Positions 6,567 through 23,318 of a stretch of DNA of 33,690 nt are shown in pieces. Numbering within the stretch: position 1 is the first letter of the stretch; every line of letters begins with the position of its first letter. The notes beneath the pieces were generated by a model. The model was not told the DNA's origin. It ran no database searches and saw only the letters and a program-made list of their open reading frames with translations. The translations under genes and the position numbers were made by a program. Source of the DNA: Candidatus Omnitrophota bacterium (GTDB lineage Bacteria; Omnitrophota; Gorgyraeia; Gygaellales; Profunditerraquicolaceae). The DNA lies in assembly GCA_026416665.1 (NCBI GenBank), contig JAOAET010000005.1, positions 1 through 33,690 of the forward strand. Reading direction: 5' to 3'.

Positions 6567-7988
6567 ATGGAACTCAAACTAAAACCTCAACTACATAAAC
6601 TCCTTGCCCCTCAGCTACAGCAGTCTCTTAAGATTCTTGCTATGTCACAGCAGGATTTAGAAAATTTAATTAATTATGAATTACTTTCAAATCCTGTGCT
6701 TGAAGAAACTTCCTGTTTGACATTAAGTTATAAAAAAGTAAACCAAACAAAACCTGGAACTTCCCCTACCGCTGACTCTCTTACATCTGTAGATGATAAT
6801 TCTGCGAGTCTTTTGGTCTCTTCAGATAACTATTTTAATAACGTCAATATAGATGGTTTTTCTCTCAAAGAAAACAAAAGTTCTTTTATCCAAAGCTTGA
6901 TTGCCTCCAAGATGTCCCTACAAGATCATCTTCTGCGGCAACTGGGAATGTGTTGTGATGACCGTGGCATTTGGATCGGACAGGAAATTATCGGAAATAT
7001 AGACGATAACGGCTACCTTAGAGATTCTCTACAAGAAATTGCCCGGAGATTAGCAGTACCTATTAAAGAGGCTGAGGAAGTTCTTTCTTTAATTCAGCAA
7101 TTTGACCCTCCTGGGGTAGGTGCAAGAGATTTAAAAGAATGTCTTCTTATTCAACTGCGTCTAAACGGCTATAATAATAGTCTTGTTGAGGAGATTGTTA
7201 AGTTACACTTAGATGATTTGGCAAAAAAGAATTATTCTAAAATCGCCAAGGTTCTTAAACAACCACTTGAGAAAGTAAAAGATGCGGTAAGAATTATCAC
7301 AAAACTCAATCCCAAACCAGGGAGGAACTATTCCTTAGAAACTGCTTATCAAATTATCCCTGATGTGCTTATAGAAGAAGACCAAGAAGGACATCTACAT
7401 ATTACTATTAATAATGAACGCATACCCCGTCTTACTATCAACAATACCTATCGTCAACTACTTAAAAATGAGAATCTTGATACAAAAACCCGTCTTTTTC
7501 TTATGGAAAAATTACGCAGTGGTTACTATCTCCTGCGCTCTATTGCCAAACGTGAATCGACCCTGCTACGTGTGGTGAAACTGGTTGCAAATATCCAAGA
7601 AGAGGCTCTTCGCAACGATATCTCTCTAATGAAACCTTTAACCTATAGACAAATTGCAGAAAAACTTAATATTCATGAAACCACTGTCTGTAGGGTAGTA
7701 ATGAATAAGTTTATCCAAACCCCTCACCATGGCATCATTGCATTGAAAGAATTTTTCCCTAGCAAAATACAGATGCCTATTAAAGAAGGTAAAAATATCT
7801 CTTCTACCACCATTAAAAGCATCATCAACGAATTAATCCAGCAAGAAGACAAAAAAAAGCCACTGAGTGATGAAGATATTGTATCTTTTATAAAAATCAA
7901 TTACTCCTGGGATGTCAGTAGAAGGACAATCACAAAATATAGGCAAGAAATAGGAATTTTTTCTTCTGTATATCGTAGAGAACGCTAG
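6567..7988 (+). CDS. rpoN: RNA polymerase sigma-54 factor
   Basis: N-terminal MELKLKPQLHKLLAPQLQQSLKILAMSQQDLENLINYEL activator-interaction region; C-terminal RpoN-box-like VSRRTITKYRQ. Confidence 0.95.
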   Translation: MELKLKPQLHKLLAPQLQQSLKILAMSQQDLENLINYELLSNPVLEETSCLTLSYKKVNQTKPGTSPTADSLTSVDDNSASLLVSSDNYFNNVNIDGFSLKENKSSFIQSLIASKMSLQDHLLRQLGMCCDDRGIWIGQEIIGNIDDNGYLRDSLQEIARRLAVPIKEAEEVLSLIQQFDPPGVGARDLKECLLIQLRLNGYNNSLVEEIVKLHLDDLAKKNYSKIAKVLKQPLEKVKDAVRIITKLNPKPGRNYSLETAYQIIPDVLIEEDQEGHLHITINNERIPRLTINNTYRQLLKNENLDTKTRLFLMEKLRSGYYLLRSIAKRESTLLRVVKLVANIQEEALRNDISLMKPLTYRQIAEKLNIHETTVCRVVMNKFIQTPHHGIIALKEFFPSKIQMPIKEGKNISSTTIKSIINELIQQEDKKKPLSDEDIVSFIKINYSWDVSRRTITKYRQEIGIFSSVYRRER

Positions 7989-7994
7989 AACTTG

Positions 7995-9050
7995 TTATTG
8001 TAGGATAACTTCTATATAGCTATTTAAATCTTGGAAGTGTTCTTTTACAGGGCTGTACAAAGCCTCCATCGTCAATTTAACTAAATGCTGCATTCTTTCT
8101 AAATCTTCGTTAGTAAATCTTATTGAAGAGACTTCCAATGCTCCTAAGTTCATTACTCCCAGAACCTTTTGACTTAAATTTAAAGGTAGAATCATTGAAG
8201 AACGAATATAAGGACGCCGCATCCTTTCTCGTATAACTTGCTCGCAGACCTTTTCATCTATTAATAAAGGTCGATTTTCCTGCACAGCTTTACCTGACAA
8301 ACCTGAACCTACTCTGACACGGGTATTCTGAATAACACTATTAGGTAAACCTTCAGCTGCTCGCACCAATAATTCTTTCATTTGTTTATCAAAAAGCATA
8401 ATAGAACCCACATCTGCCCCACTTATCAGTAAAGCAAGTTTCAGTAAGAAGCCTAATAACTCTGAAAATTTATTATGATAGTTATCAAGGAAACGTTTAT
8501 CTCCCCTTTTACTTTCATAAGCAACAGTTAAGATAAAGTCTCCTATTTTACCAATTAACTCTATCATAGTTTGTGCTCGCTGAAATGAGATAACGCGTAT
8601 TTCCATAATAGCCTTCCAAAGTTGCTCTAGATCTACATTCAGGTCATTAGCTAACTGCTGATATGCCTCCTTGGGTTTACGCATAACCAAAATCACAGGC
8701 CCCATAATAACATACGCCAACACTTTATCATTTATTCGTAGTGGAGTAAGAAAATTGTGAAATCCTGGAGGACAGACAAAATTATAATTTCGGTTAACAA
8801 TTGCCTTCCCTCCTAAAAAAGTAGGCAAACAGTAACCGCCACAGGTTTCTAATCCATATATAGATTTTTTAATAAAATCTTTACAGAGGCGGGATTCTTT
8901 ACTATCTTCGGTCAAGATTCTACCTTCAGGATCAACAGTATAAATGCCTATATTACTAACAGAGGAAAACAAATCTTGTAGTCTTTGCCAGTCTTCGATT
9001 CTGACAAGGTCGTTAAATTTTATTGGCTTTTTCCGTGGCCATAAATACAT
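7995..9050 (-). CDS. PocR-domain and GAF-domain sensor protein
   Basis: N-terminal PocR-like DWQRLQDLFSSVSNIGIYTVDPEGR...C..C..GLETCGGYCLPTF; C-terminal GAF SALLISGADVGSIMLFDKQMKELLVRAAEGLP...GLSGKAVQENRPLL. Confidence 0.75.
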   Translation of the reverse strand: MYLWPRKKPIKFNDLVRIEDWQRLQDLFSSVSNIGIYTVDPEGRILTEDSKESRLCKDFIKKSIYGLETCGGYCLPTFLGGKAIVNRNYNFVCPPGFHNFLTPLRINDKVLAYVIMGPVILVMRKPKEAYQQLANDLNVDLEQLWKAIMEIRVISFQRAQTMIELIGKIGDFILTVAYESKRGDKRFLDNYHNKFSELLGFLLKLALLISGADVGSIMLFDKQMKELLVRAAEGLPNSVIQNTRVRVGSGLSGKAVQENRPLLIDEKVCEQVIRERMRRPYIRSSMILPLNLSQKVLGVMNLGALEVSSIRFTNEDLERMQHLVKLTMEALYSPVKEHFQDLNSYIEVILQ

Positions 9051-10469
9051 TTATAGACCTTTAGGCGTTATGTTTTTTCTCAGTAGTCCGTATCGCAACA
9101 TCTTCTTATAAAGTGTTGTGCGATTTATCCCTAATGCCTTTGCTGCTTCATTACGATTCCAATTTACTGAATTAAGTGTTCTCAGAATTATATCTTTTTC
9201 AGGATTACGCAATGCTTCTTTAAGACAGGTGGCTTCCTCTGTTAAAGCTATTGACCTTTTACTTGCTAAAAGTGTGTCAGGAAAATCTTCAGCAGTAATG
9301 ATACTACTTTTACAAAGAATAACCGCCCTTTCTATCACATTTTCAAGCTCACGGATATTACCTGGCCAATGATAGTTCATTAAGATAGACATCGCCTTAT
9401 CAGAAACACCCTCTACTTTTTTGGCAATGCGTTTTGCATGTTTATTAATAAAAGACTCAACCAACAGAGGGATATCGGATTTTCTATCACGTAATGGTGG
9501 CACTTGTATTGCAATAATGTTAAGTCTATAGTAAAGGTCTTGCCTAAATTTACCCTCAAGAATTAACTTCTGAAGATCCTGATTTGTTGCAGCTATTACT
9601 CGTACATCTACCTTTCGTGTAACAGACTCACCTACTCGTTCAAACTCACCTTCCTGTAAGACCCTTAAGATTTTCACCTGTAAGTTAGGAGTGAAGGCAT
9701 CAATTTCGTCAAGAAAAATCGTTCCACCATCTGCTAACTCAAACCTACCTACTTTATCCTTGATAGCCCCTGTGAAAGCACCTTTGACATGCCCAAACAA
9801 TTCACTTTCTAGTAAAGTTTCAGTAAGTGCCCCACAGCTTACCTCTACAAACGGTTTTGAACGCTCTTTTTCATTACACTGATGAATAGCATGGGCAATC
9901 AAATGCTTGCCTGTACCGCTTTCGCCATAAATAAGCACTGTTGTTCGTGTGTTGGCAATTGCTTCAATAAGATTATAAATTTTTTGCATTTTTTCATCTT
10001 TTCCAATGATACCGTAAAACTCTTGGCGCTGAACCTGCCGAATTTGTTCTTTTAACTTTAAATTCTCCTCTTCTAGTGTCTTTTCTTTTATAAGGCGTTC
10101 AAGAACAACACGAATTTCATTATCAATTATAGGTTTGGTAATATAATCAAATGCCCCCTGCTTAATTGCTTCAACAGCGTTCTCAATACTCCCATAGCCA
10201 GTAATTATAATAACCGATGTCGTTGGATATCGTTTTTTTATTTCGCGAAGTAGCGTCAAACCATCAATCTCTGGCATCTTTAGATCGGTTATAACAACAT
10301 CCGCTAAATAATCATTAAGCTTAGACAGTGCCTCTTGTCCATTAGCAGCAGAGGATACAGTGTACCCTTCCATTGTAAGAAATTCACTTAGAGAACGGCG
10401 AACCAGTGGCTCGTCGTCAACTACTAATATACTAATTTGGCCGTTTTGGGAATAGTTAGTATTATCCAT
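9051..10469 (-). CDS. Sigma-54-dependent response regulator (REC-AAA-Fis, NtrC family)
   Basis: REC ILVVDDEPLVRRSL...ITDLKMPEIDG; Walker A GESGTGK; GAFTGA loop; C-terminal Fis HTH EAAKALGINRTTLYKKM. Confidence 0.95.
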   Translation of the reverse strand: MDNTNYSQNGQISILVVDDEPLVRRSLSEFLTMEGYTVSSAANGQEALSKLNDYLADVVITDLKMPEIDGLTLLREIKKRYPTTSVIIITGYGSIENAVEAIKQGAFDYITKPIIDNEIRVVLERLIKEKTLEEENLKLKEQIRQVQRQEFYGIIGKDEKMQKIYNLIEAIANTRTTVLIYGESGTGKHLIAHAIHQCNEKERSKPFVEVSCGALTETLLESELFGHVKGAFTGAIKDKVGRFELADGGTIFLDEIDAFTPNLQVKILRVLQEGEFERVGESVTRKVDVRVIAATNQDLQKLILEGKFRQDLYYRLNIIAIQVPPLRDRKSDIPLLVESFINKHAKRIAKKVEGVSDKAMSILMNYHWPGNIRELENVIERAVILCKSSIITAEDFPDTLLASKRSIALTEEATCLKEALRNPEKDIILRTLNSVNWNRNEAAKALGINRTTLYKKMLRYGLLRKNITPKGL

Positions 10470-11679
10470 AAATTATATGCCTACGGGGAATCAGAATATG
10501 AAAAGTGCTCCCATAGCCAACAGCACTTTCTACAGTAATAGAGCCATCATATTTATTCATAATTTCTTTACAAATTGCCAATCCCAACCCTGTGCCTTTT
10601 TCTACATGTTTAGTCGTAAAGAAGGCATCAAAAATTTTTTCCCGTATATCTTCAGGAATACCTGGCCCGTTATCTTGTATACTTATTTTGACAACTGTTT
10701 CCTCTACCTCAGTGCGCAACTTAAGAATACCTTTTTCAGGCATAGCATCTAAGGCATTTTTTATTATATTTATAAAAACATGGGAAATACCAATATCTAG
10801 GACCTTAAGAGGTCTAGGATAATATTCTTTAACTATCTCAATCTTATTTTTTATCCGTTCCGAAAACATAGCAATAGTTTCATCTAATAAGGCATGAATA
10901 TCTAAGTAGGTTTTTGGTTTCACTATGGCTTGGTTTACTTGATAAGAAAACTGCAAGAGAGATTTCGTTACATTCTCTATACGATTTAACCCGCGTTTTA
11001 TTTCTAGTAGATACTCTCTTACTATGGAATTAGAATCTATCTGTTTAAGCAACATATTAGTATAGCGGATTATACCGTCAAGAGGGTTATTTACTTCGTG
11101 AACAACGTGAGCAGCCAACTTGCCCACCGAGGCATATTTCTCTAACATCATCTTCTGCTTATCCAAATTTTCTTTTTCTTTCTTTAGACGCTCAGTAATA
11201 CCTATATTATAAGCAATTAAACCTGCATATTCTGCTATCAGGCAGGCGTATTTAAAGTCTTGTTCCGAAAAAGACTCTCCTGTTGTTTTATCTGCAATAT
11301 TAATCACCCCTAAAACCCCACCTTCAGGATTAGAAACAGGCAAAGAGATAAAAGATTTAGTATGATAATGTTTGAAACCGTTTTTACCAAAGCGATTATC
11401 TCGATCAACGTCCTTAACTAATACTGGCGTCTTCTGGGCAGCTATTTTTCCTGATACACCTTCACCAAGACGAAAACGAATACCACGAATATTTATTTGT
11501 TTAGTACTATAGTATGAATCAACAACTAATTCTTTTGTTTTTGCATCAAACACAAGCAAAGAACCACTCTCCGCAGAAAGCATCTCTAATAGGTCATAAA
11601 GGGTATCTTTTAAAAAATCTCTAACCTTTTTTTCGATTTCTAATGTAGTTTCGTCGAATTCTGTTGCCTTGTTATGCAT
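10462..11679 (-). CDS. GAF-domain sensor histidine kinase
   Basis: GAF domain; H box AAHVVHEVNNPLDGIIRY; ATPase DNGPGIPEDIREKIFDAFFTTK...GTGLGLAICKEI. Confidence 0.92.
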   Translation of the reverse strand: MHNKATEFDETTLEIEKKVRDFLKDTLYDLLEMLSAESGSLLVFDAKTKELVVDSYYSTKQINIRGIRFRLGEGVSGKIAAQKTPVLVKDVDRDNRFGKNGFKHYHTKSFISLPVSNPEGGVLGVINIADKTTGESFSEQDFKYACLIAEYAGLIAYNIGITERLKKEKENLDKQKMMLEKYASVGKLAAHVVHEVNNPLDGIIRYTNMLLKQIDSNSIVREYLLEIKRGLNRIENVTKSLLQFSYQVNQAIVKPKTYLDIHALLDETIAMFSERIKNKIEIVKEYYPRPLKVLDIGISHVFINIIKNALDAMPEKGILKLRTEVEETVVKISIQDNGPGIPEDIREKIFDAFFTTKHVEKGTGLGLAICKEIMNKYDGSITVESAVGYGSTFHILIPRRHIIYG

Positions 11680-11689
11680 AGAATTTTCT

Positions 11690-12526
11690 TTACAGTTTTT
11701 TAATTAAAGACTTTGCAGTGGCTGTTAATCTACTTTGAGGAAAATCATTAATAAGACGTTGAAGAGTTTCTCTTGCCTTTTGATTATCGTTTAATTTTTG
11801 TTGATAGATTAATGCTATATCAAACAGAATTCTATCCATTGAAGCTTTAGACTGAAATTTCTGAATAATTTCTTCGAGAGTTTGAATAGCCTTACCCCAC
11901 TGTCTTAATTCAGTATAACAAGAAGCAATTAGCTTGTAACATTCCAATGCTATTGGTGAATTAGGATACTTTTGAATCAACCCTTCATAGTGTTTAACTG
12001 CTCTCTGATAGGCGTAGTTCATCTTTTCAGGGATATGTTCTGATTTATAAACCTGTGCTATAAGTATAGGCATCCTTAAACCATTTGGAGTAAGGGGATA
12101 TTCATTTATTATTTTTTCGTATTCTAAAATTGCTGAATCAATCTTTCCTTCCAATTGGTAAGATTGTCCAAGTTGCACTAAAATCTCACTACAAATAATT
12201 GGCGATTGTGAGTAATTTTTTAGCATTTCATTCAATAATTTTCTTCCGTTTTCATATTCTTTCTTAGCAAAATACAGTTTTGCAATATTAAACTGGGCAT
12301 CAACTGTAAGAATATTTTTAGGATATTGTCTTATGAACTTTTCTAATTTAGCAATACACTCGCCAAATTTTTTAGCAGGATTAGCAGTAGGATTAAGTAA
12401 AATAATTTTAGTTTCTTTCATAATCTTCCAGTATTGCCTCTCAATGGCATACTGGTCATTTTCGCAGCCACTCAAAATAACAACAAACAAACAACAAATT
12501 AAATATAAAAACCTTGTTTGTCTCAT
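11690..12526 (-). CDS. TPR-repeat lipoprotein
   Basis: Lipobox LSGC after the signal peptide; repeated TPR-like helices. Confidence 0.8.
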   Translation of the reverse strand: MRQTRFLYLICCLFVVILSGCENDQYAIERQYWKIMKETKIILLNPTANPAKKFGECIAKLEKFIRQYPKNILTVDAQFNIAKLYFAKKEYENGRKLLNEMLKNYSQSPIICSEILVQLGQSYQLEGKIDSAILEYEKIINEYPLTPNGLRMPILIAQVYKSEHIPEKMNYAYQRAVKHYEGLIQKYPNSPIALECYKLIASCYTELRQWGKAIQTLEEIIQKFQSKASMDRILFDIALIYQQKLNDNQKARETLQRLINDFPQSRLTATAKSLIKKL

Positions 12527-13407
12527 TGGTTTTTCGTATATTTTAGATATAAATATGTGCTTGCTACTGTCATAAATAAGTCAACAATTAAAGCATTAAC
12601 CAGGGTTCCAATAATACAAATATATAACACAAATTCAGGGAACATTTTTTCGATTATCTTGGTGGTATTATCCTGCAAAATAATAATTGGAATATAAAAC
12701 AAAAATGGTAAAACTACAATTATAAAAGTTATCCAAAAATTTTTGAAAAATAATAAAATACCTTTACCAATTGCTTTAAAAACTCCGTTTTGAGCAACAA
12801 TAATAAATGGTACAGAATAAATAAATAAACATTGTAAAAAAATAGCAATTAAAAAGTTCAATGTTAGCATACTTACCGAATAAATAATCTGGGAATTCAG
12901 CTTTAGAAAACTCATTATGTTTGAAAAGATAATGCTTTTTACAATATGTAAATTTATCTTTAAAAAAATATTAAAAATTATAATTACAGTTAAAATAACA
13001 AAAAATAGACTCCAGTATTTTTTTAGCACCAATATCAATTCGTTTGACCACTTTAAAACAGTTTTTTTTGAAAAAGCCAAAACTGCAAATCTAACCGCTA
13101 AACCAGTTGTCAAAGGTCCAATAAAAAGCGAAAGAAAATTACGTGACAGTGAAGCCAATTTAGGCAATAAAAGAAAATTAGAAGGGTAATGTAAATATAC
13201 CTCTCCCCAAAATACCCTTATCGGTGGTCCTAAAAATTTAATGAAAGGTTGTCTAGGAATAAGATATATTAAAACTAAAAAAACAAGTTCAACCAAAGCA
13301 AAAAAAAGAAAAGGAAAAATTACTTTTTTTTGGGATATAAGTGCTTGGAATAATTCATGATATAATTCAATTAATGAGACGTTGTTTTTTTTCTCCTCTC
13401 TTATCAT
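12523..13407 (-). CDS. Polytopic integral membrane protein of unknown function
   Basis: 294 aa with multiple hydrophobic segments; 4-nt overlap with the downstream lipoprotein gene. Confidence 0.6.
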   Translation of the reverse strand: MIREEKKNNVSLIELYHELFQALISQKKVIFPFLFFALVELVFLVLIYLIPRQPFIKFLGPPIRVFWGEVYLHYPSNFLLLPKLASLSRNFLSLFIGPLTTGLAVRFAVLAFSKKTVLKWSNELILVLKKYWSLFFVILTVIIIFNIFLKINLHIVKSIIFSNIMSFLKLNSQIIYSVSMLTLNFLIAIFLQCLFIYSVPFIIVAQNGVFKAIGKGILLFFKNFWITFIIVVLPFLFYIPIIILQDNTTKIIEKMFPEFVLYICIIGTLVNALIVDLFMTVASTYLYLKYTKNQ

Positions 13408-13745: not shown

Positions 13746-14348
13746 CTATTTTTTTCTTGACCTAATTATTCCTAGCGCACCTAATCCTAATAAAGCAATC
13801 GTTGCAGGTTCAGGAACTGGCGAAGTTGAACCACCGCTAATTGGCATATCCCAGTTTTTTATCTGGTTATTCCAAAATAAAGGACCACTTAGAGTATAAG
13901 TTTGAGCCCAAACTTGTCCTTCATCCCATGCCCAATTAGTTCCTTGACTATTCCACATGCGGTCACTGTCAATCAAAGAATAATTTACTTGCAGTACAAT
14001 TGGATCCTGCAATGTTGTTATAGGATGACCCGAAGCAATAGCCCACTTTACCGCATTATTTTCAACAAAAATTTCAGAAGTCCAACTACCAGGGTTTATT
14101 ACTTGAAAACTTGCAGAATTTAATTTAGTTATGTCAAAAACATCTGCCTCAAAACGAAGCTGTAGAACATTAACACTTACATTGGGGTTTTCAAAGTAAA
14201 AATAGTACCTGGCAATTCCACTTGCTGAAGTTGCATTCCAACTGTTATTAAAGTTAGGATCCACTACTCCGCTTGAAGAAAACGGCAGAGCAAATGCCCC
14301 TTTAATTAAACACAATATAAAAATGCTTACCACAAACAACTTTTTCAT
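13746..14348 (-). CDS. PEP-CTERM sorting domain protein
   Basis: Signal peptide; C-terminal PVPEPATIALLGLGALGIIRSRKK; SD AAGGGGGTGA. Confidence 0.9.
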   Translation of the reverse strand: MKKLFVVSIFILCLIKGAFALPFSSSGVVDPNFNNSWNATSASGIARYYFYFENPNVSVNVLQLRFEADVFDITKLNSASFQVINPGSWTSEIFVENNAVKWAIASGHPITTLQDPIVLQVNYSLIDSDRMWNSQGTNWAWDEGQVWAQTYTLSGPLFWNNQIKNWDMPISGGSTSPVPEPATIALLGLGALGIIRSRKK

Positions 14349-14459: not shown

Positions 14460-15260
14460 TTAACATCCCATTCTTCTTTTTCTAAATCCCATAACTCCAA
14501 GAATCCCCAAACCTAACAAAGTTATTGTTCCAGGTTCTGGCACGGGATTAACTGTTGCTTTTAAATTCAAAACGTCATTTCCACATTCCATTGTCCAATG
14601 AACTCCAATAGTTCTTTGGATAGATGCATCTATCCCAAAGTAAGACAGTGGAATAGCTGCTTCAAGCACATAATGATTATTTTGGTTACCGCTGTAAACA
14701 AAAGGCACTGCTCTTGGATTTAAACCATAGAGCAAACGAAATGGATTTGCGGCAGTGTAATCAGGAGCAGGTGAACCATCGTAATAAACACCTTCCCAAG
14801 CAATTGCCTGATAGAGTAATGCTTGTGTTCCCTTAAAAGTACTCACATCCAAAGCATATTCATAACCAGATTTATTTAGATCAATATCAAAAGCAATATC
14901 TCCTGGCACAAAGTGCGGATTACCAGGTGCTTGGTATCCGCTAAAAGGAAGGCCTGTAATTATTGCCAAATATATATTATACTCATCATTATCAAAATAT
15001 ATTGCCTCTGCATCAAACACATTATAATAAGACCAACCAGGTCCTACCTGTGTCCACTGATGATAAATATCTGCATTATCTTCAGTAAATACATCCACGG
15101 TTGTACCTGTAGGACGATTATTATCAAGATAACCTATAGCATTGGCTGCAGCAAGATTTATTCCCCAATCATTTACGAAACCATCAATAGTATAAGCGAA
15201 AACTGATCCCCTTATACTTAAAAATAACACTGCCAACAAAATAATACTCAATCTTTTCAT
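14460..15260 (-). CDS. PEP-CTERM sorting domain protein
   Basis: Signal peptide; C-terminal PVPEPGTITLLGLGILGVMGFRKRR. Confidence 0.9.
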   Translation of the reverse strand: MKRLSIILLAVLFLSIRGSVFAYTIDGFVNDWGINLAAANAIGYLDNNRPTGTTVDVFTEDNADIYHQWTQVGPGWSYYNVFDAEAIYFDNDEYNIYLAIITGLPFSGYQAPGNPHFVPGDIAFDIDLNKSGYEYALDVSTFKGTQALLYQAIAWEGVYYDGSPAPDYTAANPFRLLYGLNPRAVPFVYSGNQNNHYVLEAAIPLSYFGIDASIQRTIGVHWTMECGNDVLNLKATVNPVPEPGTITLLGLGILGVMGFRKRRMGC

Positions 15261-15295: not shown

Positions 15296-16162
15296 TTAGT
15301 TAGCACCTCTTCCTGTTAGAACTACACCAATTGTTTTTATTAAAATATCTAAATCTGTCATCAAACAACGTTTTCTAATATAGATAAGGTCATATCTGAC
15401 TTTTTGCCTTACGTCTTCTATACTTTCATCATATTTGTGTAACACCTGCGCCAATCCAGTAATACCTGGTTTTACTCTGAATCTTTTCTCATAATCCCTG
15501 ATTATTTTTTTAAGATTATTTACGATCTCAGGACGTTCTGGCCGTGGACCAACAATACTCATCTGACCTAACAGAACATTTACAAGCTGAGGTATTTCAT
15601 CAATACGTAACTTCCTAAGAATCCTTCCCACCGGAGTGACTCTGGGATCGTCTTTAGTTGCCCAAACTGCCCCTGTATTTTTCTCAGCATCCTGGCACAT
15701 AGTTCGCAATTTATAAATCCAGAAAACCTGACCGTTTAAACCTACCCTTTTTTGTCGATAAATAATTGAACCTGGTGATGTTAATTTGATCATAATAGCC
15801 GCTACACAAACTAAAGGCGAAGAAATAATCAATCCGAAAAAAGCTAAAACAATATCCATTAATCTTTTAAATCGGTCAAAGCTTTTTCTAACAAACCGTA
15901 TTAAAAGTCCGCCACAACCACTTATTAACAGAATAAAAGTACTTGGCTCAGGTAGATGTCCATGCTCAATGGGGCGTATTTTTTTTACATAATCGCCGTA
16001 ACTAAATTGTGGACTTCCAACTTTTATTTCGCTATTAAAAAACGAGATAGCAAAAATTAACTTTTTTCCCAAAATTGGCTCAAAGAAAAGTGTCAAAATT
16101 AAGGATAGAATTAGAAGAAATATACAAAAAATAAATTTTTTCTTTCTAATAAAGTCAGACAT
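15296..16162 (-). CDS. Polyprenyl-phosphate sugar transferase with an N-terminal PEP-CTERM-like module
   Basis: Sugar transferase core RLMDIVLAFFGLIISSPLVCVAAIMIKLTSPGSIIYRQKRVGLNGQVFWIYKLRTM...SIVGPRPERPE; preceded by LPEPSTFILLISGCGGLLIRFVRK. Confidence 0.9.
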   Translation of the reverse strand: MSDFIRKKKFIFCIFLLILSLILTLFFEPILGKKLIFAISFFNSEIKVGSPQFSYGDYVKKIRPIEHGHLPEPSTFILLISGCGGLLIRFVRKSFDRFKRLMDIVLAFFGLIISSPLVCVAAIMIKLTSPGSIIYRQKRVGLNGQVFWIYKLRTMCQDAEKNTGAVWATKDDPRVTPVGRILRKLRIDEIPQLVNVLLGQMSIVGPRPERPEIVNNLKKIIRDYEKRFRVKPGITGLAQVLHKYDESIEDVRQKVRYDLIYIRKRCLMTDLDILIKTIGVVLTGRGAN

Positions 16163-16619
16163 AGTTTAAGGAAGAACTTCATTAAATAAAAATTAAATAA
16201 AACTAAAAAAATTGCTGCAGTATTCTACGATTATTCTTAATAAAAAACCGCTGTAAAAACAAGTAAATTTCTAACTGCCTCTTTAACTCTTGCAATATTA
16301 ATTTCAAATTTTTCAGATAAATATTAATTTTTCTCATATTCAATATTTTTAGTAGCATTTATTATGCCAAATTTAAAAATTATTATTTATTTGATTTTTT
16401 ATAATTTATTCTATTCCAAATAGTTATATTCTTATTCTTCTTTTTTAAAGTTTGACTTAAAAGGGTCCTGAATTATTAGAAAAGATGGAAAAAGAGGTTT
16501 TGTTGATTATTGTCAACAGAAAAGAAATCGTTTTCAGAACAATTATTGTAACTTATTGATATTCAAAAACCTATAAACAAAACAGTTAAATAATCAATGA
16601 TATAAAAATTTCAACATTT

Positions 16620-17273
16620 TTAAGGAAGATATTGAGAAAGTAAGGGTTCAAGCAGGATACAGAAAGAAATTAGCTTCTCAAATGTCTGTTTTTCTGATAA
16701 AGATGCTTCTATAGGTATAACTAATCTGATTAAGGCACTGGAAACCTTCTTACCCAATAATCTACCGAAGCTTACTTTAATTTGCTGTCTTATATAACTG
16801 GGGGTATAAGCTGAACCTACTTTATACCAAAAAAGAACTACTTGTCTTGAACCTTCTTTTTCAAGAATCATTTTGGTTGCTTTAATATTTTTGGATACAG
16901 CAATCTCAGATTTCTGCACAACGACTGCTCCCTCTGACTGTAAACAAATTTCAGGTGGATGGCTGACCTTACGGTTATCTTGAGAATAAATGATGTAAAG
17001 ATTTATAATCTTACCTTGTGAATTTACGTAATCCCGCATAATTAGGTTACGAGTTTCCAGAAGTTCATACACCCTTTCCTTTAAAGGTAAATCTTTTCCT
17101 TGCCAATCTCCAATACTTAAAGGAAAATCTTTTAAATTTACATTGTCAACAGTAGTTGGAATAAAATAATACCAGCGGTATCCCACAATCCCAGCAAGTA
17201 ATAGCAGACAACAAACAATTATAAAATTTTTATTTAAATTTGAACGCATTATTTTTTTTGTTAATATTTTCAT
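16620..17273 (-). CDS. EpsI-family exosortase-associated protein
   Basis: FPLSIGDWQGKDLPL...DYVNSQGKIINLYIIYSQDNRKVSHPPEICLQSEG. Confidence 0.85.
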   Translation of the reverse strand: MKILTKKIMRSNLNKNFIIVCCLLLLAGIVGYRWYYFIPTTVDNVNLKDFPLSIGDWQGKDLPLKERVYELLETRNLIMRDYVNSQGKIINLYIIYSQDNRKVSHPPEICLQSEGAVVVQKSEIAVSKNIKATKMILEKEGSRQVVLFWYKVGSAYTPSYIRQQIKVSFGRLLGKKVSSALIRLVIPIEASLSEKQTFEKLISFCILLEPLLSQYLP

Positions 17274-17334: not shown

Positions 17335-18147
17335 TTATTCAAAAAGGTTTCGTAATAAATTTAAAGCTAAAAAAGCAAAAATAAAGACAACAATACCCAT
17401 AATGTCATGAAATCTTCCTGTAGCAAACCTTACTCCATATATCTCACTTACTGCTGTCAGTATAACAATTCTGAAAACATTAGCCAAAATAGAAATGGGT
17501 AGAGAAGAAATAAAAAGTAATATTTTCTTTCTATAAGAAAGTTTACTTAAATATGCCATCAACGCTCCCAAAGCTATTAGAGCAATTAAGGAACGAATCC
17601 CAGAACAAGGATCTTCAATAACTAAATAAGAATGCGCTGTTCGGATGATACTGCCTTCTCTTTGAGCTGGAATTCCTATAAATCTTACTACAGAAACAGC
17701 TAATTGTGCTGCTAAAATCTTAAGACGAAAACTGATATTGGCAATTGCTACCATCGGTAATGGAATCATAAAAGAAAGAAAAATTAATGGAAAAAGTATT
17801 TTCAATAAAAATTCTTTTCCTAAAAAAATTAGGATAAGACCTGCAAAAACCGCCAGTAAAGAAAATCCCGCAGAGAAATATACTTGCCAAAAAGCACTTA
17901 CTATAAAAATTATTATCCCAAGAATAAAAAAAATCCACCCTCTATCATCCGAGGTAAAAGTTACATTTTTTAATTCATCTCTGATGCGCCAAATTAAATA
18001 GGCGCTTATAAAAGGCACCAGAATTCCGTGGCTATAATAGGTGTCTTTAGCAGTCCAGCGTTCATACATCCAGATAAAAACTGGTAAGTAAACAATAAAA
18101 ATTATTACTTTCAGCAAGAAAAACCGAAGTAAGATTTCTTTTTTCAT
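17335..18147 (-). CDS. Exosortase
   Basis: Polytopic; YYSHGILVPFISAYLIW, catalytic EDPCSGIRSLIALIALGAL, NVFRIVILT and RFHDIMGIVVF (Cys, Arg, His). Confidence 0.95.
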   Translation of the reverse strand: MKKEILLRFFLLKVIIFIVYLPVFIWMYERWTAKDTYYSHGILVPFISAYLIWRIRDELKNVTFTSDDRGWIFFILGIIIFIVSAFWQVYFSAGFSLLAVFAGLILIFLGKEFLLKILFPLIFLSFMIPLPMVAIANISFRLKILAAQLAVSVVRFIGIPAQREGSIIRTAHSYLVIEDPCSGIRSLIALIALGALMAYLSKLSYRKKILLFISSLPISILANVFRIVILTAVSEIYGVRFATGRFHDIMGIVVFIFAFLALNLLRNLFE

Positions 18148-18160
18148 AACGACGCTGACC

Positions 18161-19360
18161 TCATATATTAAAAATTTCTAGTTGAAAAATGGGAAGTAAT
18201 ATAGCAAAGACAATCAAAACCACAAAACTACCTATTAATAAGACCAATGTCGGCTCAAGCAACGAAACAAAGGAACGAACTAAACGGTTTGACTCGTTCT
18301 CAAAAGTTTTTGCCATACGAAAAAGCATATCAGTAAGAGTTCCCGATTCCTCCCCTACTAGCACCATTGTTGTAATAATCGGTGGGAAAATGCTCTCTTG
18401 TTGAAAACAACTACTTAGACTCATTCCCTTGCTAATGTATTCCGTAAAACGAGAAATTTTTTTTCGTATGGCTCTATTATTTATACTCAGTGTAACCACA
18501 GAAAGTGCATTAAGCATAGGTATACCACTTTCTAAAAGTATACCTAAGGCATAGGAAAATCTTGCTGAATCAAAAAGTACCAATAAGTCTTTTAATATAG
18601 GTATACGTAATAAAAATTCATCCAACCAAACACGCTTTTTTTCTGATTTAAAAATCTGACTAATCAAAATTATAGCGATCAAAAAAAATAACAAAATAAT
18701 CCACCAGAAATTTGTCAGAACCCTGCTTAAAAAAATAAGAATTTGGGTTGGTAAAGGCAAAAACTGGTTCATTTCAGTAAAAATGTTAAGTATTTTAGGG
18801 ACAAAGAATGTCATTAATATTACAATCATAAGAATTCCTATTACAATTAAAAAAGTAGGATAAACAAGCGCTGCCTTAACTTGTGCTTGGGTCTCAAGCT
18901 CCTTTTCTTTAAAATCTGCCAAGCGTTCTAAGGTTTTTTCCAATTGTCCACTGGTCTCGCCTATCCGCACCATACTAATGTAGAATGAAGAAAACAAATT
19001 AGGAAATACTGCCAATGCTTCTGAAAAAGTAGCGCCTTTCTCTATTTTTTGACTAATTTGTTCAACTAACTTTATCATTGCAGTTTTGTGTATTTGTCGC
19101 TTTACTGTTAAAAGTGCCTGTGATAAAGGCACTGCAGAATAAACAAGATTCGCCAACAGACGAGTAAACTGACTTATATCTTGCTGAGTAATCCATCCGG
19201 AACTATCTTTCTTCTGGCTGATGATTATTTCTTCAATAGTAATAGGATATAAACCGTCTTCACGTAACTTCCGAACAACTGCCTGTGGATTTTCTGCAAA
19301 GATTGTGCCTGTCTTTGTTTTATCAGGACCGATTTTCGCAACGTAGCTAAATTGTGGCAT
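18161..19360 (-). CDS. gspF: Type II secretion/type IV pilus assembly inner membrane protein GspF
   Basis: Two T2SSF domains; FTRLLANLVYSAVPLSQAL and LGILLESGIPMLNAL...GEESGTLTDMLFRMA. Confidence 0.92.
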   Translation of the reverse strand: MPQFSYVAKIGPDKTKTGTIFAENPQAVVRKLREDGLYPITIEEIIISQKKDSSGWITQQDISQFTRLLANLVYSAVPLSQALLTVKRQIHKTAMIKLVEQISQKIEKGATFSEALAVFPNLFSSFYISMVRIGETSGQLEKTLERLADFKEKELETQAQVKAALVYPTFLIVIGILMIVILMTFFVPKILNIFTEMNQFLPLPTQILIFLSRVLTNFWWIILLFFLIAIILISQIFKSEKKRVWLDEFLLRIPILKDLLVLFDSARFSYALGILLESGIPMLNALSVVTLSINNRAIRKKISRFTEYISKGMSLSSCFQQESIFPPIITTMVLVGEESGTLTDMLFRMAKTFENESNRLVRSFVSLLEPTLVLLIGSFVVLIVFAILLPIFQLEIFNI

Positions 19361-19372
19361 AGAGAATGTATT

Positions 19373-21043
19373 CTAAATTTGCTCTTGGGTTACCCGGATT
19401 ACTTCTTCAATGGTTGTAATCCCTGCCTTGACCTTTTGCCATCCTGCATCACGCAGAAGTTTCATGCCTTCACTGATTGCCTGCTGTCTGATTTGTTGCG
19501 AAGGAACTTTTTTAAGGATAAGTTCACGAATTGAATCTGATATACGCATCATTTCAAATATACCTGTTCTACCTTGGTAGCCAGTAAAGCGGCACGCATC
19601 ACATCCCTTACCGTGAAATAATGTTATTCCATTACTGTCTTTGTCAAACTGACGCAAAAGCTCGAGACTCGGCATATAAGATTCTCTACACACAGGACAG
19701 ATAATACGCACTAATCTCTGTGCAATAATCAATAAAAGAGATGAAGAAACTAAAAATGAATCAATCCCCATATCCAGCAACCGAGTAATTGCACCAGCAG
19801 CGTCATTGGTATGTAAGGTACTAAAAACCAAATGGCCAGTTAAAGATGTTCTTACTGCAAGCTCTGCTGTTTCTGTATCACGAATTTCTCCCACCATCAT
19901 TACATCAGGATCATGTCGCAACATTGAACGTAAGGCATTAGCAAAAGTAAAATCTATCTTAGGCTCAACTTGCATTTGAGTAACACCTTTTAATTGATAT
20001 TCTATGGGGTCTTCAATAGTAAGAATCTTTCTCTCTGAAGAGTTAATCTTGTTAAGACAAGCATAAAGAGTTGTTGTCTTTCCACTTCCAGTAGGACCTG
20101 TAACTAAAATAATGCCATATGGACGAGAAATTATTTCCTCTAAAGTCCTTTTCTCATCTGTAGTTAACCCCAATGATTCTAAACCAATAATAGGGTTTGA
20201 ACGGGGCAAAAGGCGAATACCGATACTTTCTCCAAAAGGTGTAGGCATTATAGAAACACGTAAATCATACATCTCTTGGCCCATTTTGATATCTACTCTT
20301 CCATCCTGAGGCCTACGCTTCTCGGCAATATCTAAATTAGCCATAACTTTTATCCGAGAAGAAATTGACGACTGAAAATCTTTAATATTAGCTGGACAAG
20401 GGACTTCATAGAGAACCCCATCAATACGATAACGCACTCTTAAACTATCTTCAAAAGGTTCAAAGTGAATATCAGTTGCCCTTTGTTTAATAGCATCGGA
20501 TAATACCTGATTAATAAACTTTATTACAGAAGGGTCTATGTGTTCTTCTCTTATATCTTGTTTTTTCTGTTGCTTAATAATTTCAAAACTGGCTGGCTCC
20601 TCCTGTGCCATTGCCTCAAGTGTATCTGCACCCAGACCATAGACACTTTTAATTGCCTCTAAAATATCCTTGTGTAAACTTAAAACTGGCTTAACTGAAC
20701 AATTGCACAGAAGCGCTATTTCATCAAGTACAGATATACAGAAAGGGTCATTTATAGCAAGATCTAATTGATTTTGCTTTATTCTAAGGGGCATTACCGA
20801 ATAATAAGTAACTATCTTTGCAGGAATATATTTTGTGATAGAAGTATCTATAGTCTCAATATTTATTCTCTCAAAAGGAATGTTTAAAAGTTCTGAAATA
20901 TTTTTTAGAAGTACCTCTTCAGAGATTCCTGATTTTATAGTAAGCAGACGCAATAAAGACTGACCGGACGTTTTTGTTTCAAGCAAACACTGTTTCCAAA
21001 CATCTTCTTGAATATCTAACTGTTTATATATGGGTATGGACAT
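19373..21043 (-). CDS. gspE: Type II secretion/type IV pilus ATPase GspE
   Basis: Walker A GPTGSGKTTTLYA; GEIRDTETAELAVRTSLTGHLVFSTLHTNDA; CPVC...CDAC zinc motif. Confidence 0.95.
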   Translation of the reverse strand: MSIPIYKQLDIQEDVWKQCLLETKTSGQSLLRLLTIKSGISEEVLLKNISELLNIPFERINIETIDTSITKYIPAKIVTYYSVMPLRIKQNQLDLAINDPFCISVLDEIALLCNCSVKPVLSLHKDILEAIKSVYGLGADTLEAMAQEEPASFEIIKQQKKQDIREEHIDPSVIKFINQVLSDAIKQRATDIHFEPFEDSLRVRYRIDGVLYEVPCPANIKDFQSSISSRIKVMANLDIAEKRRPQDGRVDIKMGQEMYDLRVSIMPTPFGESIGIRLLPRSNPIIGLESLGLTTDEKRTLEEIISRPYGIILVTGPTGSGKTTTLYACLNKINSSERKILTIEDPIEYQLKGVTQMQVEPKIDFTFANALRSMLRHDPDVMMVGEIRDTETAELAVRTSLTGHLVFSTLHTNDAAGAITRLLDMGIDSFLVSSSLLLIIAQRLVRIICPVCRESYMPSLELLRQFDKDSNGITLFHGKGCDACRFTGYQGRTGIFEMMRISDSIRELILKKVPSQQIRQQAISEGMKLLRDAGWQKVKAGITTIEEVIRVTQEQI

Positions 21044-21051
21044 TTCTTTTT

Positions 21052-21828
21052 CTAGTTACGGATTTCGTAACGTAAGGTAATTGGATCATTACCGCGGACT
21101 AAAACAATTTCTATTTGTGACTGAGATGGAAGACGATTAAAGATGTTTAATGCCTCTTGAATGCTGGTTAAAGGTTGACCTTGGACCGAATAAATGATAT
21201 CTCCGTTCTGAATACCTACCTGTTCAATAATACTTCCTGCGGGGACATTTTCTAAAAGGAAACCGCGCAGTTTCGAAGACCCCTGCTCTGCTACAGGTAA
21301 CACCTTTAGTTTGGAAAGAAGCTCTTTTTCACGCACTAATTGTGCTATCATTTCGTATTTATTTATGATAAACAGGTCTGCTCCCTTCTGCTGGTATACC
21401 TTGGGAGTTGAATCTGCTAGCTGCCGTGCCGAAGATAAATAGAATTCTTTCTGATGGCCTTGCTTTTCGAGAACAATCTTTCCTTTAGAAATATTAATGA
21501 TTAAAGCACCGTCGATTGTATCACCAAGCCGGTAGAGACAACTTTTTCCTGTGGATGGTTCAAAAATAAAAGCAACAGAAAAGTTACCCAAGATGGTGCC
21601 CAAAAGCTCAATCTCGGGAAAGACAACTGATTTCTGGTTTACTTGCTGCCTGGTTAAATTAAGGCTTTGTATTGCGTTTATTTCTGACAGCTGTATTTTT
21701 TTAGAGTCTAATTCTTCCTTGTCAGGAGAATTTATAAGTAAAAAAAGCTGTCCAACAAGCACAATAAACAAAAAAACTGCTAATGCCAATGTAAGATATA
21801 AAGAAAAATTATTCTGCTGAATTTTCAT
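21052..21828 (-). CDS. GspC-like protein with HR and PDZ domains
   Basis: N-terminal TM, ELLGTILGNFSVAFIFEPSTGKSCLYRLGDTIDGALIINISKGKIVLE, PDZ-like GIQNGDIIYSVQGQPLTSIQEAL. Confidence 0.8.
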   Translation of the reverse strand: MKIQQNNFSLYLTLALAVFLFIVLVGQLFLLINSPDKEELDSKKIQLSEINAIQSLNLTRQQVNQKSVVFPEIELLGTILGNFSVAFIFEPSTGKSCLYRLGDTIDGALIINISKGKIVLEKQGHQKEFYLSSARQLADSTPKVYQQKGADLFIINKYEMIAQLVREKELLSKLKVLPVAEQGSSKLRGFLLENVPAGSIIEQVGIQNGDIIYSVQGQPLTSIQEALNIFNRLPSQSQIEIVLVRGNDPITLRYEIRN

Positions 21829-21830
21829 TT

Positions 21831-23318
21831 TTAACGTAGGGGTTTTCTTAACTTCTCATCTACCTGCTTTAATAAATCTTGCTCCTTTTGCATTAAGTTG
21901 ACATCAACTGACTCTCCTATACGCCCAGGACTTACAATTCGCGGCGTAATAAAAATTACTATTTCTTTCTTTACTGTCTTTGTATATTTGTTACGAAAAA
22001 GATATTTAAGGATTGGTATATCCCCAAGTATTGGAATTTTAGCAACTACTTCCTGCTTTTCGTCTTTAATTAACCCACCCATCACCAAGGTATTACCATC
22101 TTTAATAGTCATCACTGCGTTCGCCTCAGTTGTGTCTATTGCCAAAGTATCCGTAGCAGCAGTACCCGTCCGCGGAGAACTAACTTCTGGACGAATATTT
22201 AAAGTGACAAAACCATCTTGTGAAATCTTAGGTGTTACCGTAAGTTTAATACCCACCTCTATGAATTTTACTTCTTTACCAGTAATACGCCCTTCTGAGT
22301 CATAGTGAAATACCTCGTATGGCTCACTTGAACCGATGAGAATCTTTGCTTCGGTGTTATCGAGCGTAACAATACGGGGACTAGAGATAAGATTGGTGTC
22401 AGTTGTTGCCTCTAAAGCCTCGATGGCAGCAGTATATTCATCTTGGGTTAATACACCTATCCGAAATGCCTCAAAGGCAGTAACTCCACTAGGTAGTGGT
22501 AAATTAGTTACTCCTAGTGAAAGGGAGTGCTTTTTGGTATCCTGATACTTCCAATCAACCCCAATAAGACGAGCCTTCTCTAAAGTTATCTGAAGAATCT
22601 TTGCCTCAATGAGAACCTGTGGGATTTGCCTGTCCCAGTTTTCAATTATTGCTTCTATTTTATCTAATAAAAGAGGTGAGGCTGAAACAATTAAGCTATT
22701 GGTGCGTTCATCTATTAAAAATTCGCCTTCATTAGCAGGAATTATCGACTGCAGGCTCTTTTGAAGTTCTAAAGGTTTGGCGTAGTTTAAACGGAAAACT
22801 CGGGTTTCAAGACGTTTATCCATCTCCTTAATTGCGTCTTCAATAGCACGTAGACCTTCTTCTGTGTCAGTTACTACAACAGTATTTGTCTTTGGTTCAA
22901 CCTCAAGCCTTCCTCTTCCTGTTTTTAGTGAAAGAAGTGTCTGTTTTATATCGGTTGCCTTAACATACTTTAGCCGATAAACCCGAGTAAAAAGCTGAGC
23001 AAATTGTTCTTTTTGATTTAACTCAGGTAAGGTATAAACTTGAATAATATTTCCTTCTTTTATATAACCACAGTTATTTACTTTCAATATTGCATCTAAG
23101 GCACGTTCTACAGGTATGTTTTGTAAGTTTATGGTAACTAACCCCTTTACATTCTTTGAAGTGATGATGTTAAGCCCTGACTGGTCAGCAATCATCCGAA
23201 TAACATCAGTAATTTCCATATCTTTAACGTCTAAAGTGATTGTGGTTTCAGAAGCAAGAGAGAAATTTACTGCGTAAAGACATAAACAAATTATTGAAAA
23301 AAACTTTATCTTTGTCAT
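21831..23318 (-). CDS. gspD: Secretin GspD
   Basis: N-domains DVIRMIADQSGLNIITSKNVKGLVTINLQNIPVERAL; secretin LVMGGLIKDEKQEVVAKIPILGDIPILKYLFRN. Confidence 0.93.
   Translation of the reverse strand: MTKIKFFSIICLCLYAVNFSLASETTITLDVKDMEITDVIRMIADQSGLNIITSKNVKGLVTINLQNIPVERALDAILKVNNCGYIKEGNIIQVYTLPELNQKEQFAQLFTRVYRLKYVKATDIKQTLLSLKTGRGRLEVEPKTNTVVVTDTEEGLRAIEDAIKEMDKRLETRVFRLNYAKPLELQKSLQSIIPANEGEFLIDERTNSLIVSASPLLLDKIEAIIENWDRQIPQVLIEAKILQITLEKARLIGVDWKYQDTKKHSLSLGVTNLPLPSGVTAFEAFRIGVLTQDEYTAAIEALEATTDTNLISSPRIVTLDNTEAKILIGSSEPYEVFHYDSEGRITGKEVKFIEVGIKLTVTPKISQDGFVTLNIRPEVSSPRTGTAATDTLAIDTTEANAVMTIKDGNTLVMGGLIKDEKQEVVAKIPILGDIPILKYLFRNKYTKTVKKEIVIFITPRIVSPGRIGESVDVNLMQKEQDLLKQVDEKLRKPLR

Follow-up and report, generated by a model that had tools for sequence, protein, structure and literature searches.

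A conserved internal PEP-CTERM-like module before the core of a predicted phosphoglycosyl transferase in Omnitrophota

Locus and transferase

The window (33,690 nucleotides of a Candidatus Omnitrophota contig) carries on its reverse strand an exosortase, EpsI, a transferase and two C-terminal PEP-CTERM proteins (Table 1), the exosortase and the PEP-CTERM genes lying where the first-pass annotation placed them. PF02397 (Bac_transf) was matched by residues 99–282 of the transferase; the complete core, the re-entrant helix and the Asp-Glu dyad are those of a monotopic phosphoglycosyl transferase (PGT). Core fold and dyad are shared with PglC (PDB 8e37, 8g1n) and WbaP (8t53), which have no PEP module; the catalytic role of Asp188-Glu189 is presumably that of the PglC residues. 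From homology, transfer of a sugar 1-phosphate to polyprenol phosphate is predicted, and the enzyme probably starts surface-sugar synthesis. The core is also homologous to that of the exosortase-associated families TIGR03013 (EpsB_2, XrtA/PEP-CTERM system glycosyltransferase) and TIGR03025, whose members are about 450 aa long with a larger N-terminal part; only the C-terminal part of each model was matched (model positions 254–442), and the scores lay below the cut-offs (TIGR03013: 271 vs 393 bits; TIGR03025: 293.9 vs 295.6 bits). The AlphaFold model was confident for the core; pLDDT was <50 for residues 31–69.

Table 1: Features of the transferase locus (positions in the window).
Feature	Position	Strand	Basis or remark
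288-aa phosphoglycosyl transferase with internal PEP-CTERM-like module	15296..16162	(-)	PF02397 225 bits; layout shared by 54 loci
N-terminal hydrophobic helix, about residues 8–30, signal anchor or signal peptide	16073..16141	(-)	sequence; AlphaFold helix 2–27
Predicted exported loop, residues 31–70, poorly conserved	15953..16072	(-)	pLDDT <50 for 31–69; median 31 changes/column
Internal PEP-CTERM-like module: PEP, hydrophobic helix, RFVRKSF basic cluster	15878..15952	(-)	residues 71–95
PEP tripeptide, residues 71–73	15944..15952	(-)	2, 1, 5 changes in 61 sequences; synonymous codons varied
PglC-like catalytic core (predicted), residues 98–287	15302..15871	(-)	PDB 8e37/8g1n, sequence E 1e-31, fold E 1e-14
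Asp188-Glu189, catalytic dyad of the PGT family	15596..15601	(-)	invariant in A1–A3
Sigma-54-type promoter-like site, about 190 nt upstream of transferase ATG	16354..16369	(-)	TGGCATAATAAATGCT; equivalents in 73/82 transferase loci
EpsI	16620..17273	(-)	TIGR02914 84.8 bits, cut-off 42.8
Exosortase, XrtA-like, Cys/Arg/His motifs present	17335..18147	(-)	TIGR02602 160 bits, cut-off 105.6
C-terminal PEP-CTERM protein	14460..15260	(-)	PF07589 30.2 bits
C-terminal PEP-CTERM protein	13746..14348	(-)	PF07589 32 bits

Internal module

Residues 71–95 of the transferase are exactly PEPSTFILLISGCGGLLIRFVRKSF (15952–15878): the Pro-Glu-Pro of PEP-CTERM proteins at residues 71–73, then the hydrophobic helix and the basic cluster at 74–95, with the R and K columns conserved among relatives. 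Both this tripartite reading and its placement directly before the transferase core had been proposed on first inspection, and both were borne out; as the core begins after the module, a cut at PEP would leave it complete. PEP-CTERM proteins normally carry the tag at the C-terminus, whereas 193 residues lie downstream of the present one.

TIGR02595 (PEP_CTERM) matched residues 71–89. HMM scoring, suggested earlier as a check, gave a divided result: 22.2 bits were obtained for the 26-aa segment alone and 17.6 bits for residues 1–95, but only 15.3 bits, against a cut-off of 16, for the whole protein. PF07589 at E ≤ 1 gave 7 sites in the organism's own genome, the transferase module being the seventh and weakest; TIGR02595/PF07589 matches at E ≤ 0.1 were found in 19 of 23 relatives. 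The call is borderline by HMM score alone, and was settled, at the level of sequence, by comparison with the relatives.

Relatives, conservation and loss

Profile searches over 59 relatives, an order sample of 129 genomes and a phylum sample of 392 gave many full-length homologues; the genomes sampled are MAGs that differ in completeness. Transferases were taken from 80 genome stretches, and the tree was built on the core only. The nearest named relative (L004, Candidatus Omnitrophota) showed 58% identity over residues 11–288. The clade obtained (68 rows, SH-aLRT 88 by a quick method) comprised 54 sequences with exact PEP, 6 with single-residue variants (PEF, PEA, PEV, SEP) and 8 without PEP, namely 7 of family f36 and L218; counts out of 61 refer to this clade minus f36.

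The search for the same architecture in other genomes, also suggested in the first-pass annotation, returned 54 exact-PEP transferases in one Omnitrophota clade, all of one layout (54/61): a signal-anchor helix and a short, predicted exported loop, then PEP with its helix and basic cluster, and finally the core. This layout and the association with exosortase and PEP-CTERM genes are common to many families of one class. The internal PEP motif exceeds chance, because the exact tripeptide is kept at this frequency while the preceding loop varies: on the tree, P, E and P changed 2, 1 and 5 times, against column medians of 31 changes in the loop and 17.5 in the PEP helix (61 sequences). Within the N-terminal part, few columns change as slowly as the first P, the E and those of the SG..G spacing; the third P is replaced more often (PEF, PEA, PEV), and synonymous codons at the three positions vary freely. 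The module consensus is [KR]-x-[RH]-A-P-E-P-S-T-L-A-L-F-G-S-G-x-x-G-M, followed by basic residues.

Chance or assembly artefact was ruled out as the source of the reading frame, the identical open frame being present in dozens of independent genomes.

Homologues that keep the helix and lack PEP, which had been named beforehand as grounds for rejecting a sorting role, do exist. L218 is a second transferase copy in G416, distant from the exosortase, that has lost PEP, while the exosortase-adjacent copy of the same genome keeps it; in f36 the locus order, the exosortase and the PEP-CTERM proteins are all present with a PEP-less transferase; in the sister lineages f38 and G049/G050 a comparable pair of N-terminal helices is present, again without PEP. 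Because each of these cases is either nested within the clade or belongs to a sister lineage, they limit the claim without removing it, and PEP is not thereby meaningless. They do show that PEP and the anchor can be separated; from f36 together with the six PEF, PEA, PEV or SEP sequences it follows that transferase function does not require PEP.

The same homologues, together with the borderline HMM score, would agree with a plain membrane anchor, a fusion relic of a neighbouring PEP-CTERM gene in which the exosortase has no part. PEP is unnecessary for anchoring, however, yet its first two residues and the SG..G spacing are held as stated above, and its presence tracks that of the exosortase (below); this explanation is considered unlikely.

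In the f36 transferases (L220–L226), a short conserved xPYGF-like segment stands where PEP would be.

Outside Omnitrophota, where the sampling reached one further large group only, just core matches from about profile position 83 onward were found (36 related-core genomes and 398 of the phylum of G459).

N-terminal helix and exported loop

The first helix ends in AxA-type sites (e.g. AWA), clear in many relatives and weak in the present transferase; the sites were assigned by a simple AxA rule, by eye and script. Loop length clusters near 34 aa, with 6–17 aa in several PEP-keeping families. The topology proposed earlier, with the stretch before PEP outside, is plausible from hydrophobicity and charge by the positive-inside rule. 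AlphaFold modelled helix 73–128 unbroken, so that the model does not settle the topology; just one relative in its alignment covered the N-terminal part.

The AxA-type sites in many members and the clustered loop lengths might point to a polyprotein, from which signal peptidase and exosortase free a peptide of about 34 aa as the functional product, the transferase being merely fused to it. The loop is nevertheless the least conserved part of the protein and falls below 10 aa in places, for which reasons the exported peptide as main product was downgraded; the AxA sites, moreover, were called by eye and script. Such a product is improbable.

Association with the exosortase

The order Xrt-EpsI-transferase on one strand was found at 53 of 61 loci, the transferase usually directly downstream; several of the exceptions lie at contig ends or just beyond the distance rule. 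In the phylum sample (392 genomes), an exosortase was present in 48/50 genomes with the PEP-transferase vs 72/342 others (Fisher 6e-26, not corrected for phylogeny); in the order sample, likewise uncorrected, the figures were 11/12 vs 9/117. The two PEP-transferase genomes without exosortase have the gene on short contigs, in one case of 3.8 kb right after EpsI, in the other of 3.4 kb. G049, in which no exosortase was detected, has a close transferase homologue without PEP (one such homologue inspected).

Comparison with C-terminal tags

Basic residues at both -4 and -2 before PEP (upstream signature [KR]x[RH]A) were found in 38 of 54 transferases, but in 0 of the 153 ORFs from those loci that carry PEP-CTERM at the C-terminus. 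Otherwise the internal motif closely resembles the C-terminal tags: the SG..G spacing, the ST that follows PEP and the basic end all recur. It is therefore a relative of the ordinary tag with a signature of its own, and the exosortase could handle it differently from ordinary substrates. This signature was not part of the first-pass annotation, nor was the promoter described below.

The upstream residues suggest special handling, and with the changeable third P beside a kept P1-E2 and the conserved adjacency to Xrt-EpsI they argue for a serious rival to cleavage: an uncleaved dock or pseudo-substrate, by which the transferase would be held at the exosortase, or regulated by exosortase occupancy, with no proteolysis. 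Against it stand the close match of the remaining motif to C-terminal tags and the cleavage of an internal archaeosortase tag (PMC7157517). It is regarded as possible, though doubtful.

Sigma-54-type promoter

The promoter-like site (pattern TGGCAC/T-N5-[TA]TGCT) recurs upstream of the transferases of L171–L250, and was counted at 73/82 transferase loci vs 2/59 exosortase genes vs 17/335 other long ORFs. PEP-less members also carry it; the promoter is therefore not tied to PEP. Close to the PEP-CTERM genes, positions 6567–12526 encode sigma-54 (rpoN, 6567–7988), an NtrC-like regulator, a GAF histidine kinase and a TPR protein, a set that resembles PrsK/PrsR/PrsT, described together with sigma-54 sites for Proteobacteria only (Haft 2006, PMC1569441).

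Proposed mechanism and known systems

The module shares with the PEP-CTERM sorting domain (TIGR02595/PF07589) the PEP, the hydrophobic helix, the basic cluster, the exosortase as neighbour and in co-occurrence, and the sigma-54-type promoter; it differs from an ordinary tag in being internal, in the enzyme of about 190 aa that follows and in the basic -4/-2 residues. Rare non-terminal PEP-CTERM copies were regarded as possibly non-functional and were noted to be more variable in sequence (Haft 2006, PMC1569441), whereas the motif of the transferases is conserved; a PEP-CTERM-type module can thus be internal and conserved, contrary to that early suggestion.

Internal sorting tags have precedent. 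The central tripartite site of the fusion protein HVO_0405 is cleaved by archaeosortase A, an exosortase relative (PMC7157517); there the motif is PGF, and the protein an archaeal, strain-specific domain fusion, while the Omnitrophota tag stands in front of a PGT and has been kept across a class. MXAN_5598 likewise has a sorting tag (MYXO-CTERM) in mid-protein, but is a single protein, its processing only proposed and the protease family unrelated (PMC11980579). A literature search for an internal PEP-CTERM tag before a PGT found none; it did not cover the 2012 exosortase paper (Haft), and priority is uncertain.

The reading favoured, with some reserve, is that an initiating PGT contains, in its N-terminal membrane hairpin, an exosortase-recognition module that is probably cleaved, whereby sorting would be coupled to glycan priming. 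The N-terminal helix would take the loop, usually of about 34 aa, across the membrane; PEP would lie at the outer face, the PEP helix would return to the cytoplasm, and the PglC-like core would follow. To judge from conservation, synteny and co-occurrence, the internal site is most likely bound by the exosortase, whose gene lies two genes upstream; likeness to known substrates and to HVO_0405 suggests that it is probably cleaved as well. The PglC-like core would then stay in the membrane through the PEP helix together with its own re-entrant helix. That such a cut would release a peptide and spare an active transferase, as the first-pass annotation proposed, is a hypothesis. Recognition and probable cleavage would thus link priming of a surface glycan to the machinery that sorts proteins bearing the same tag. 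Uncleaved docking apart, the other two explanations, exported peptide and mere anchor, are less likely than cleavage.

Exosortases have been tied to exopolysaccharide loci mainly through gene neighbourhood. Conservation of the tag next to the exosortase gene points to a physical connection between glycan priming and protein sorting, and a priming glycosyl-lipid enzyme that bears the exosortase's own recognition tag is a direct physical candidate for this link, found in a large group of uncultured Omnitrophota.

Attachment of a new moiety to the cleaved protein by exosortases is a suggestion (PMC11980579). The archaeosortase A gene stands beside that of the lipid-head-group enzyme PssA in several methanogens, and cleavage of Haloferax archaeosortase A substrates requires PssA and PssD (PMC7157517). 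By analogy with this requirement, the transferase might make a lipid-linked sugar or precursor that is used as exosortase acceptor in the transfer of PEP-CTERM proteins, the internal tag holding or activating the enzyme at the exosortase; the proposal is tentative and rather unlikely, and the tagged transferase could make the acceptor question testable.

Other genes

The same genome contains a second exosortase-like gene, divergent and scoring narrowly below the TIGR02602 cut-off (G000:C18:6007-6594). Type II secretion genes for GspF, GspE, GspC and a secretin (18161–23318 (-)) lie immediately upstream of the exosortase, an arrangement shared with L004; MYXO-CTERM and GlyGly-CTERM proteins use this secretion system (T2SS; PMC11980579). 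The ORF at 12523–13407 (-) encodes a 294-aa membrane protein with no Pfam/NCBIfam match; by BLAST, 49 of 81 related loci contain a relative of it.
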